Positions 6,604 to 46,412 of a stretch of 46,412 nt of DNA are shown piece after piece (the stretch's first letter is position 1; each line of letters starts with the position of its first letter). The position numbers and the translations under genes were made by a program. The notes below the pieces were generated by a model that was not told where the DNA came from, made no database searches, and worked only from the letters and a program-made list of their open reading frames with translations. This DNA is from Mariprofundaceae bacterium (GTDB lineage Bacteria > Pseudomonadota > Zetaproteobacteria > Mariprofundales > Mariprofundaceae): contig JAUZQM010000035.1 of NCBI GenBank assembly GCA_030950985.1, positions 1 to 46,412 of the forward strand, given 5' to 3'.

Positions 6604-6798
6604 CATTCTCGAATACTTGTGTCGAGAATCTATGGGAATAATTTTTTTACGCCCCCTCCGCTCACTCTACCAGAAATACTGGTGTCGGAGAGGGGGTGTT
6701 TCAAACAACAAACTGATGTTATGCAGACCGTCATTCCCGTGGTCTTTTAATCGGGAATCTAAACATAGATTCTCGATACAAGTATTCGAGGGTGACGA
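6604..6798. repeat. Composite intergenic hairpin repeat island between fimV and uup
   Basis: Left arm CATTCTCGAATACTTGTGTCGAGAATCTATG (6604-6634) is the near reverse complement of 6764-6794. Internal element-like end ACTGATGTTATGCAGACCGTCATTCCCG...CGGGAATC begins at 6712. Confidence 0.8.
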
Positions 6799-28620: not shown

Positions 28621-28631
28621 AAAACTTAAAC

Positions 28632-28820
28632 ACTGATGTTACGCACGTTGTGAAAAAGATGCATCATCCTATGCTCTTAGGTTCTAAATTCGGCATGCTT
28701 TGCCCTGATACTTCATTCGGCGGGGCTAAAGCCGCACTTACAGAGTCATGAACACAGAGCAATCTTCATCTCTGAAAATCGATTAAAAGAGCACGGAATG
28801 ATGGAGTGCGTAACATCAGT
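28632..28820. mobile_element. MITE-like non-coding element, complete copy 1 (189 bp)
   Basis: 15-bp perfect TIRs ACTGATGTTACGCAC / GTGCGTAACATCAGT, flanked by 5-bp direct repeat TAAAC (28627-28631 and 28821-28825). No ORF; internal core shared with copy 2. Confidence 0.88.
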
Positions 28821-29914
28821 TAAACATTAAAGCGGAAGTGCAATACATCTCCATCTTGAACAACATACTCTTTACCTTCCAAACGCATTTTCCCTGCTTC
28901 TTTCGATTTGGCTTCACCACCCAGTGTGACAAAATCATGATATGCAATGGTTTCTGCACGAATAAAACCTTTTTCAAAATCATTGTGAATGACAGCAGCG
29001 GCTTTGGGTGCTGTATCACCGATATGAATGGTCCAAGCTCGAACTTCTTTCACGCCCGCAGTAAAATAAGTAATTAAATTTAACAAGGTATAGGCGGCAC
29101 GAATAACCATATTAAGCCCTGGTTCTTTTAAACCTAAATCAGCTAAAAATTCAGTTTTTGATTCGTTATCCATTTCAGCCAATTCAGCTTCAATTTGTGC
29201 AGAAACAATCGCAACTTCTGCATTTTCTTCAGCTGCAAACGCCCGTACCTTTTCCACATAAGCATTACCATCAGGCAATGAAGCATCATCCACATTGGCA
29301 ATGTATAACACAGGCTTGCCAGTCAATAGGCAATAATCTGTAATTTTATCCCGATCATCATCCGTTAAATCTTGACGACGTACGGTGATACCATCTTCCA
29401 AGCCCTTTAACACACGTTCTTGCACTGCCAGCAAAGCCAAAGCATCTTTATTGCCTGATTTTGTGGTTTTAACCGTTCTTTCCACCGCTTTTTGCATGCT
29501 TTCCATATCTTTAATCATCAATTCGGTATCAATAACTTCAATATCAGAAAGGGGATCAATGGTATTGGCAACATGCGTCACATTCTCATCATCAAAACAG
29601 CGTACAACATGAGCAATCGCAGAGCATTCACGGATATTGGCAAGAAATTTATTTCCCAGACCTTCACCGCTTGCAGCACCCGCCACCAAACCAGCAATAT
29701 CAACAAATTCAACGACAGCGTGTTGCATGGCTTGTGGTTTGACAATTTTTGCCAAGGCATCCATGCGTACATCTGGAACTTTGACCAAACCTATATTGGG
29801 CTCAATCGTGCAAAAAGGATAATTGGCAGCTTCTGCGCCACCACCATTCAATGCATTGAATAAAGTTGATTTACCAACATTGGGAAGCCCAACGATGCCA
29901 ATGGATAATGCCAT
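28820..29914 (-). CDS. ychF: Ribosome-binding ATPase YchF (Obg-like GTPase family)
   Basis: MALSIGIVGLPNVGKSTLFNALN; C-terminal TGS region YHDFVTLGGEAKSKEAGKMRLEGKEYVVQDGDVLHFRFNV. Confidence 0.97.
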   Translation of the reverse strand: MALSIGIVGLPNVGKSTLFNALNGGGAEAANYPFCTIEPNIGLVKVPDVRMDALAKIVKPQAMQHAVVEFVDIAGLVAGAASGEGLGNKFLANIRECSAIAHVVRCFDDENVTHVANTIDPLSDIEVIDTELMIKDMESMQKAVERTVKTTKSGNKDALALLAVQERVLKGLEDGITVRRQDLTDDDRDKITDYCLLTGKPVLYIANVDDASLPDGNAYVEKVRAFAAEENAEVAIVSAQIEAELAEMDNESKTEFLADLGLKEPGLNMVIRAAYTLLNLITYFTAGVKEVRAWTIHIGDTAPKAAAVIHNDFEKGFIRAETIAYHDFVTLGGEAKSKEAGKMRLEGKEYVVQDGDVLHFRFNV

Positions 29915-44199: not shown

Positions 44200-44781
44200 A
44201 TGAACATGTTACACAAACATACCTATGCCATCTTGTTATTATCATTATTCACGCTTGGACAAGTTGCATGTGCAAATCAAGAAAGTACGCATAAGGAGAA
44301 TAAAATGGGCTTATTTAGCAAAGCACCCCAAGCAGGTGATGACAACATTCCTGAGGGAAATCATATCAAAATTACTACCAAATATGGTGATATGATACTT
44401 GAATTATATCCTGATACAGCACCCAATACAGTTGCTAATTTCAAAGCTCTCACAGGCAAAGGATTTTATGATGGTCTCACTTTTCATCGTGTCATTGCAG
44501 GTTTTATGGCACAAGGTGGCGATCCAGATGGCACAGGCATGGGCGGACCAGGTTACAAAGTGAAAGCTGAATTTAATGCACGTCATCATGAACGTGGTAC
44601 TTTGGCAATGGCACGCTCTCAAGATCCAGATTCAGCGGGTAGTCAATTTTATATTTGTTTTGCACCCGCACCTCACTTAGATGGTCAATATACTATTTTT
44701 GGTAAAATCACAGAAGGTTTAGATGTATTGGATCAAATCAAGCAAGGTGATTTGATGGAAAAGGTATCGGTAGAGCCTTAG
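44200..44781 (+). CDS. Cyclophilin-type peptidyl-prolyl cis-trans isomerase, exported
   Basis: GDMILELYPDTAPNTVANFKALTGKGFYDGLTFHRVIAGFMAQGGDPDGTGMGGPGY; N-terminal signal/possible lipobox (GQVAC). Confidence 0.94.
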   Translation: MNMLHKHTYAILLLSLFTLGQVACANQESTHKENKMGLFSKAPQAGDDNIPEGNHIKITTKYGDMILELYPDTAPNTVANFKALTGKGFYDGLTFHRVIAGFMAQGGDPDGTGMGGPGYKVKAEFNARHHERGTLAMARSQDPDSAGSQFYICFAPAPHLDGQYTIFGKITEGLDVLDQIKQGDLMEKVSVEP

Positions 44782-44796
44782 TTTTTAAAGTTTTGG

Positions 44797-44839
44797 ATCA
44801 CAGCGTTACAAAGCATATTGGTCTTTGTGACGTTGTGAT
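44797..44839 (+). terminator. Long-stem hairpin downstream of the cyclophilin gene (putative terminator)
   Basis: ATCACAGCGTTACAAAG-catattggt-CTTTGTGACGTTGTGAT: 17 consecutive pairs including 2 G-U wobbles; followed only by a weak AT-rich tract. Confidence 0.55.
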
Positions 44840-44847
44840 ATTTAATC

Positions 44848-45045
44848 ACTGATGTTATGCGATTTGATGAAAAAGAAGCGTTATTTTAGCTTGGTCGATC
44901 ATTTAACACCTTTTGGAAATGTGGCTTTAGCCACGCCCTGATACGTCATTCGGCGCGGCTAAAGCCGCACTTCCAGAGTGATATGGAATGTTCCTATATT
45001 TCCCGATTAAAAGACCATGTGAATGACGGTATGCGTAACATCAGT
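44848..45045. mobile_element. MITE-like non-coding element, complete copy 2 (198 bp)
   Basis: TIRs ACTGATGTTATGC / (TGCGTAACATCAGT), flanked by 5-bp direct repeat TAATC (44843-44847 and 45046-45050). Core GCCCTGATACgTCATTCGGCGcGGCTAAAGCCGCACTTcCAGAGT shared with copy 1. Confidence 0.88.
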
Positions 45046-45788
45046 TAATCAGAAAACTCATCATCACTCCAATCATCTCCACTACCGTCACTCTGAACCT
45101 TATCAGCAGGTGGATGACCATCATAAATGACATATTGACGATGTTGTCGCCATGCTTCACGCGTAAAAATATATGGGTCAAGTGCCACTTCATCGCGCAT
45201 ATTTGAAGCTTCCATCACCCGTGATCGCATATCAATATATTTCATCACGGTCAAAGGCAGAGTAACTTGTGGTGTGGTTATGAGAAACAACCAAAAGGTC
45301 AGATCGGTTGCTGTTCCAGTGATAAAATCAGGCGTATTTCTCAATGAATTTGGCCCTAAAAATGGGTATTCAATGTAAGCACTTTTTCCCACACCCCATA
45401 CTGCCAAAGTCTGCCCCAAATCTTCATTGTGTTTTTCAAAACCCAATGGCGTTGCCACATCGGCAATACCTGCAAAACCAAGTGTCGAGTTAATCACAAA
45501 ACGTGTTGTATCACTGAACCCTTGTTTTACTTTGCCTTGTAAAAAATCATTCAAGACCGTATTTAAATAGGTCACATTATCAAAAAAGTTCGACACCAAA
45601 CCACGTGTTGGCTCACTGGCAATCGATTGATAACCCAAAGCGAGCGGTTTCATGGTTGCGCGATCGACCACATCATTAAAATGATCAAATTTACGGTTCA
45701 TGCCCTCTAAAGGGTCATATTCATTTTGTGCTGTGGCACAGCCCGAAAGCATGGCTAGGACAAATAAGGAAAGGATATATTTTTTCAT
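45045..45788 (-). CDS. mlaA: MlaA/VacJ family outer-membrane lipoprotein
   Basis: Lipobox AMLSGC; YDPLEGMNRKFDHFNDVVDRATMKPLALGYQ; FAGIADVATPLGFEKHNEDLGQTLAVWGVG. Confidence 0.93.
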   Translation of the reverse strand: MKKYILSLFVLAMLSGCATAQNEYDPLEGMNRKFDHFNDVVDRATMKPLALGYQSIASEPTRGLVSNFFDNVTYLNTVLNDFLQGKVKQGFSDTTRFVINSTLGFAGIADVATPLGFEKHNEDLGQTLAVWGVGKSAYIEYPFLGPNSLRNTPDFITGTATDLTFWLFLITTPQVTLPLTVMKYIDMRSRVMEASNMRDEVALDPYIFTREAWRQHRQYVIYDGHPPADKVQSDGSGDDWSDDEFSD

Positions 45789-45869: not shown

Positions 45870-46295
45870 ATGATAAAAATTATTTTCGCTTTGTTTATTA
45901 TTGTTCCCCTCTTGGAACTTTATGTTTTGATTCAAGTCGGGGCTGGTATTGGTGGTCTCTCTACAATCATTCTATGTTTATTGACTGCGGGTTTGGGTGG
46001 TTTACTGATTCGCTGGCAAGGGTTGCGTACTTTAGTATCGGCTCAACAAGAGTTGCTTCAAGGCGGTTTGCCTGCTGCACATATTTTACATGGCATTATG
46101 CTTGCCATTGCTGGTCTTTTACTCTTTTTACCAGGTCTCATCACGGATACATTGGGTTTTTTATTGCTTGTTCCATTTTTACGTGAGCAAATTATTTTGT
46201 ATGCAGTGCGTGATAAAAAAGTACATCAGCCTACGCATCACTCAGACGTTATTGAAGCCGAAATCATTGAACCCAAAGATTTTCATGTCAAATAA
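45870..46295 (+). CDS. fxsA: FxsA family membrane protein
   Basis: IPLLELYVLIQVGAGIGGLSTIILCLLTAGLGGLLIRWQG; GLLLFLPGLITDTLGFLLLVPFLR. Confidence 0.92.
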   Translation: MIKIIFALFIIVPLLELYVLIQVGAGIGGLSTIILCLLTAGLGGLLIRWQGLRTLVSAQQELLQGGLPAAHILHGIMLAIAGLLLFLPGLITDTLGFLLLVPFLREQIILYAVRDKKVHQPTHHSDVIEAEIIEPKDFHVK

Positions 46296-46379
46296 TTGAT
46301 GTTACGCATACAGTCATATCGTTATTTTTTAATCGGATTTCAGGGATGACATTGCTGTGTGTTCAACACTCTGGAAGTG
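46295..46379. mobile_element. MITE-like element copy 3, partial (runs off the window)
   Basis: ATTGATGTTACGCATACAGTCATATCG...TTTTTTAATCGGATTTCAGGGATGACATTGCTGTGTGTTCAACACTCTGGAAGTG closely parallels the reverse complement of copy 1 (…TTTTAATCGATTTTCAGAGATGAAGATTGCTCTGTGTTCATGACTCTGTAAGTGCGG). Confidence 0.8.
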
Positions 46380-46412
46380 GGGGGGGTGGGGCGGGGGAAG
46401 AAGGATATGAGG

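Follow-up and report, generated by a model that had tools for sequence, protein, structure and literature searches.

We found that an intergenic element of 196 bp, repeated about 100 times in its host, a 1.75-Mb MAG of the Mariprofundaceae (Zetaproteobacteria) from an uncultured relative of iron-oxidising marine bacteria, very probably belongs to the MITEs of the ISAba11-type IS701 group and has acquired its interior in the form of a REPIN-like REP doublet. The parts of this composite are known, their combination is unusual: two mobile-DNA systems are nested one in the other. The copy described here lies in the window (the whole stretch of 46,412 nt that was analysed) and is made up as follows:

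44849-45044, plus strand: composite MITE, 196 bp (44848-45045 if the ISAba11 convention counts the outer A/T within the ends)
44849-44860, plus strand: left terminal inverted repeat CTGATGTTATGC
45033-45044, minus strand: right terminal inverted repeat, CTGATGTTACGC read on the minus strand, the same as in ISAba11-like ISs
44842-44848, plus strand: left copy of the target duplication, TTAATCA
45045-45051, plus strand: right copy of the target duplication, TTAATCA, in which TTA corresponds to the stop codon (TAA) of the minus-strand gene mlaA
44915-44974, plus strand: REPIN-like REP doublet, 60 bp
44915-44937, plus strand: REP 1, T/A type, GGAAATG TGGC TTTA GCCA CGCC, palindrome 44921-44934
44952-44974, minus strand: REP 2, C/G type, inverted, GGCG CGGC TAAA GCCG CACTTCC, palindrome 44955-44968
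44997-45028, minus strand: degenerate copy of a second palindromic repeat (CGTCATTC..GGTCTTTTAATCGGGAA), which occurs also in MITEs without the REP doublet

The first-pass annotation of this DNA had described a complete mobile element with a conserved palindromic core, and both points are borne out, as the two inverted ends (12 bp each), the flanking repeats and both 14-nt palindromes were located where it had placed them. The abundance of the element is far beyond chance, since the 13-base end ACTGATGTTACGC gave 181 matches with at most one mismatch in the own genome (G000) compared to one match for the reversed control, and a search of the same genome with the element yielded 57 matches at E≤0.001. 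When a 23-base piece of the core was compared with 84,980 species genomes, the matches were confined to Zetaproteobacteria, and all but one were titled Mariprofundaceae or Mariprofundus. The element does not carry a transposase gene (no ORF of ≥100 aa within the 196 bp). Rfam covariance models at the gathering threshold matched a single tRNA in the whole window and left the element unmatched, and neither sigma-70 promoter-like nor terminator-like sites were found in the region 44700-45100.

Judged from its sequence, the shell of the element is assigned to the MITEs of the ISAba11-type IS701 group. The ends CTGATGTTACGC are common to the MITE, to an intact IS in another genome of the same family (G070) and to ISAba11-like ISs of Acinetobacter and Cyanobacterium. 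In the own genome we identified a decayed 477-bp IS copy that retains its two ends along with a transposase fragment of 69 aa, and it was via this fragment that the intact IS in G070 was reached (L196, 658-1767). The latter is 1,110 bp long with the ends CTGATGTTACGCACC, has a 7-bp target duplication (TTAAAAA) and encodes a 354-aa transposase that scores 348.7 bits with NCBIfam IS701_2 (cut-off 250). Plasmid homologues of this transposase include one with 60% identity that is annotated 'group ISAba11 transposase', and the ISAba11-like ISs on plasmids of Acinetobacter schindleri and Cyanobacterium have the ends ACTGATGTTACGCA. The 196-bp element and the G070 IS have only their ends in common; a 424-bp derivative in the own genome (G000:C70) retains part of the IS end, and a 139-bp derivative looks like an internal deletion. 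No intact transposase was found in the own genome, which is 88.8% complete and whose contigs often end in these repeats. Another candidate source, the IS4-family ISPepr1, which makes target duplications of 7-8 bp, was rejected: its published ends (YT-AA-YTT) do not fit, and the PF01609 transposases of the genus are without these ends at their flanks. Those of the relatives G005 and G006 look like ISAs1-type transposases.

The flanks had been called target-derived and different between copies, and indeed the duplication reads TTAATCA here and TTAAACA at a further copy in the window (copy 1). The first-pass annotation was also right about the presence of a duplication, its length of 5 bp becoming 7 bp (TTAATCA) when all repeated bases are counted. 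The shorter figure is a convention and no error, since the ISAba11 literature reports a target duplication of 5 bp (PMC7885321), and it fits the 7-8 bp in our data if the outer A/T is counted within the ends. Our sample from the own genome and its relatives comprises 91 elements in which both ends are present. Exact duplications of 7-8 bp flank 43 of them outside CTGATG...CATCAG, compared to a mean of one when left and right flanks were randomly re-paired. As consensus of the target we obtained TTA-N(1-2)-TAA. Six duplications deviate from an initial T and a final A; in every one of them the odd base is identical on both sides, and thus the T and A at the outer edge behave as part of the target.

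The element is situated between two convergent genes, and two further copies are present in the window:

44200-44781, plus strand: ppi, gene of a cyclophilin-type peptidyl-prolyl isomerase (PF00160), convergent with mlaA
45045-45803, minus strand: mlaA (PF04333), stop codon within the target duplication
28633-28819, plus strand: copy 1, a composite of the same kind with the target duplication TTAAACA (28626-28632 and 28820-28826), first REP missing
46296-46412, plus strand: third copy, cut by the contig end, starting directly after the TAA stop codon of the ORF 45870-46295

TAA stop codons adjoin copy 1 and the truncated third copy too. In the relatives G005 and G006 mlaA ends in an unduplicated TGATTAA, whereas G000 and G008 share the insertion at mlaA with a duplicated TGATTAA in both and 93% identity. 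The copy at 44849-45044 thus predates the split of these two species, with the end of mlaA as its target, and is old. Among 81 elements, 25 have the stop codon of a long frame at most 5 bases from their edge, compared to 22 of 221 matched TTA-N(1-2)-TAA sites (p = 3e-5). Insertions favour TAA stop codons; the target preference accounts for part of this bias, the excess over the matched sites is not explained by it, and either way the hairpin lands in 3' untranslated regions. Several smaller features were noted in the window. An imperfect palindrome ATCACAGCGTTACAAAG...CTTTGTGACGTTGTGAT at 44800-44843 adjoins the element; it is missing at the orthologous site of G008, and no further copy was found in the loci examined. 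The contig end inside the third MITE copy (46380-46412) is G-rich, of low complexity and probably an assembly artefact. Single or degenerate ends of the same MITE family without a clear partner are present at 6713, 14210 and 25314. A second palindromic repeat, CGTCATTCCCG...TCTTTTAATCGGGAATCT, was found at 6729-6760 and in many MITEs of G000, G005 and G006, both with and without the REP doublet; it resembles CGTC-tagged repeats.

In the conserved centre of the element GGAAGTG-N-GGC-TTTA-GCC-N'-C occurs twice, in inverted orientation and 14 bases apart, and what the first-pass annotation overlooked is that this core is a separate repeat family, a RAYT-associated REP doublet. The REP motif was counted 186 times in the own genome, 165 times in G070 and 51 times in G008, while control motifs gave 0 or 1 per strand across 74 genomes of the family and 0 in the own genome. 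In one RAYT clade (L231-L237, from seven family genomes) the motif surrounds all seven loci, mostly in alternating orientation, compared to none of eight other RAYT loci; in G004, for example, it is found on both sides of the RAYT gene. Of the 74 genomes, 14 contain 5 or more REPs, and these include all seven that have a RAYT of this clade (Fisher p = 2e-6, related genomes counted as independent). Because the motif is found at all loci of the clade and at none of the eight other RAYT loci, the core fits a RAYT-associated REP doublet (REPIN), with the head GGAAGTG rather than GTAG/GTGG. The GTAG-tagged REP superfamily was rejected as an assignment, the head before the palindrome being GGAAGTG, and we count this head against the explanation we prefer. 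A RAYT of the REP-linked clade was not found in the own genome (88.8% complete); the own genome and G008, both MAGs that are <90% complete, yielded only distant RAYTs without a GGAAGTG REP. The RAYTs of the own genome (C98, C137) were rejected as the source of the REPs, the motif being absent from their flanks. The one on C98 (L208, 166-1101) is a RAYT-like Y1 transposase that has a DnaA-type helix-turn-helix (PF08299) at its C-terminus. Elsewhere in the own genome (G000:C2, L031, 5308-5645) about five 66-bp tandem units carry one REP each and are open in long frames on both strands.

From the ends and duplications we infer that an ISAba11-type transposase supplied in trans would cut at CTGATGTTACGC, and that the unit would then be inserted at AT-rich TTA-N(1-2)-TAA targets, often stop codons. 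The REP doublet would formerly have been moved by a RAYT recognising the own hairpin of each REP and would now spread passively along with the MITE. After insertion, a stable hairpin in the 3' untranslated region of the neighbouring genes could protect or process mRNA 3' ends. As neither an intact transposase nor a RAYT of the clade was found in the own genome, the current mobility of the element is only putative. That both systems are extinct in the own genome, and that the copies are relics without any present movement, is a serious possibility to which we give somewhat less than an even chance. The own genome yields decayed IS remnants only and no RAYT of the clade, an exact duplication of at least 7 bp is missing in 48 of the 91 sampled elements, and one copy is common to another species (G008); on the other hand, several near-identical copies have perfect duplications, and the assembly is incomplete with many contigs ending inside elements, so that an intact source could be missing. 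For the lineage of G000 and G008 we suggest tentatively, as a rather unlikely course of events, that the RAYT is gone and that the REP doublets, having escaped it, now multiply as cargo of an ISAba11-type MITE by means of an unrelated DDE transposase.

We consider it improbable that selection acts on a long hairpin formed by both palindromes, which might for instance serve as a substrate of RNase III or protect 3' ends, and that this explains the conservation of the core. Stop codons adjoin the element, the 24-nt arms 44914-44937 and 44952-44975 are 88% complementary, and the calculated energy minimum of the core as RNA, at -38.5 kcal/mol (z = -7.7), is a long hairpin joining both palindromes. 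The alternative hairpins proposed in the first-pass annotation are therefore physically possible. The covariation of the paired arms that it had put forward as a check is not supported between the palindromes, where 51 distinct cores contain only 3 two-sided changes and 34 of the 51 fail to pair column 19 with column 42. Pairing within the palindromes, in contrast, holds for 94.9% of cells with 21 two-sided changes in the same cores, and its covariation score of 0.151 compared to 0.094 for shuffled cores was reached by none of 500 shuffles. The pairs that distinguish the two folds thus favour the local stems. Perfect 4-bp arms are found in 133 of 159 REPs with free arms, compared to 56 expected by shuffling. 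At the RAYT loci the opposed REPs differ in arm type (CGAC/GTCG and AGGC/GCCT), each being self-complementary and the two poorly complementary to each other, which also speaks against selection for the long hairpin. Covariation hence supports the own stem of each REP and not pairing between palindromes. Part of the covariation of REP 1 (T/A to C/G) could be due to gene conversion with REP 2 and not to independent compensation; REP 1 is missing in 7 of 75 cores, copy 1 (28633-28819) among them. Two folds have been proposed for REPINs, hairpin and clover (PMC3116915), and the long hairpin as energy minimum together with the local stems matches these two. The family thereby offers a natural experiment on which of the REPIN folds selection maintains, with covariation in the local stems and none in the long hairpin.

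The composite can be divided into two modules that occur both apart and together. MITE ends and REPs are both numerous in G000, G008 and G070. Ends are found without REPs in G005 (34 ends, no REP) and nearly so in G006 (56 ends, 3 REPs), and REPs without ends in G089 (39 REPs, no end), G087 (21 REPs, no end) and, with a single end, in G064 (27 REPs); G089, G087, G073, G074 and G064 all contain REPs and have 0-1 exact ends. Of the 59 complete elements sampled in the own genome, 41 carry the core, its junctions being conserved, and 18 are without the doublet; several REP doublets of this genome are located outside any MITE. That there is but one ordinary MITE family, the hairpin being merely its interior without separate identity or RAYT history, agrees with the 41 of 59 elements and is nevertheless most doubtful, being already contradicted because each half occurs without the other (REPs without ends in G089, G087, G064 and G073, MITEs without REPs in G005 and G006) and because REPs flank RAYT genes and stand alone in the own genome. 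Copies that share an identical interior differ in their target duplications, hence the composite has moved as one unit. REP capture by MITEs has probably happened more than once, because MITEs of G070 and one MITE of G006 hold REP pairs of different build; REPs seem to have entered MITEs with this type of end at least three times, namely in G000/G008, in G070 and at locus L070 of G006. Captures of this kind may repeatedly have allowed REPINs to survive where a RAYT is lacking.

A literature search on MITEs and ISs in Zetaproteobacteria, on the TIR sequence and on REPINs nested in MITEs found nothing relevant. The shell resembles the ISAba11 group (IS701/IS4-like ISs) in its ends ACTGATGTTACGCA, the short AT-rich target duplication and a source IS of 1.1 kb, and IS-derived MITEs such as MITEAba12 (PMC6382973) are likewise without coding capacity, although MITEAba12 belongs to a different IS, ISAba12, with a 9-bp duplication. 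In contrast to the ISAba11 group and these MITEs, the host here is a zetaproteobacterium and the interior is a REP doublet instead of IS sequence. ISAba11-type ISs, mainly studied in Acinetobacter as carriers in resistance contexts, are now linked to a large expansion of MITEs in Zetaproteobacteria. CGTC- and GTAG-tagged palindromic repeats (PMC3733652, in which we found neither Mariprofundus nor Zetaproteobacteria mentioned) are also small, intergenic palindromes of high copy number; a CGTC-tagged palindrome (cf. PMC3733652) is present inside these MITEs as well, whereas the REP core itself bears neither tag. With the REPINs or BIMEs moved by RAYTs (PMC3116915, PMC2817692) the core has in common two inverted REPs with a short spacer, more than 100 REPs per genome, tandem clusters, REPs flanking RAYT genes and complementary changes in the palindromes. 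It differs from them in the head, GGAAGTG instead of GTAG/GTGG, and in that the own genome, where most of the sampled doublets are inside an IS-type MITE, yielded no RAYT from the clade that matches them. REPINs are regarded as dependent on a RAYT encoded by their own genome; if our explanation is true, a REP doublet riding on the MITE of a DDE transposon has a second way to spread, which would break the dependence on the RAYT.
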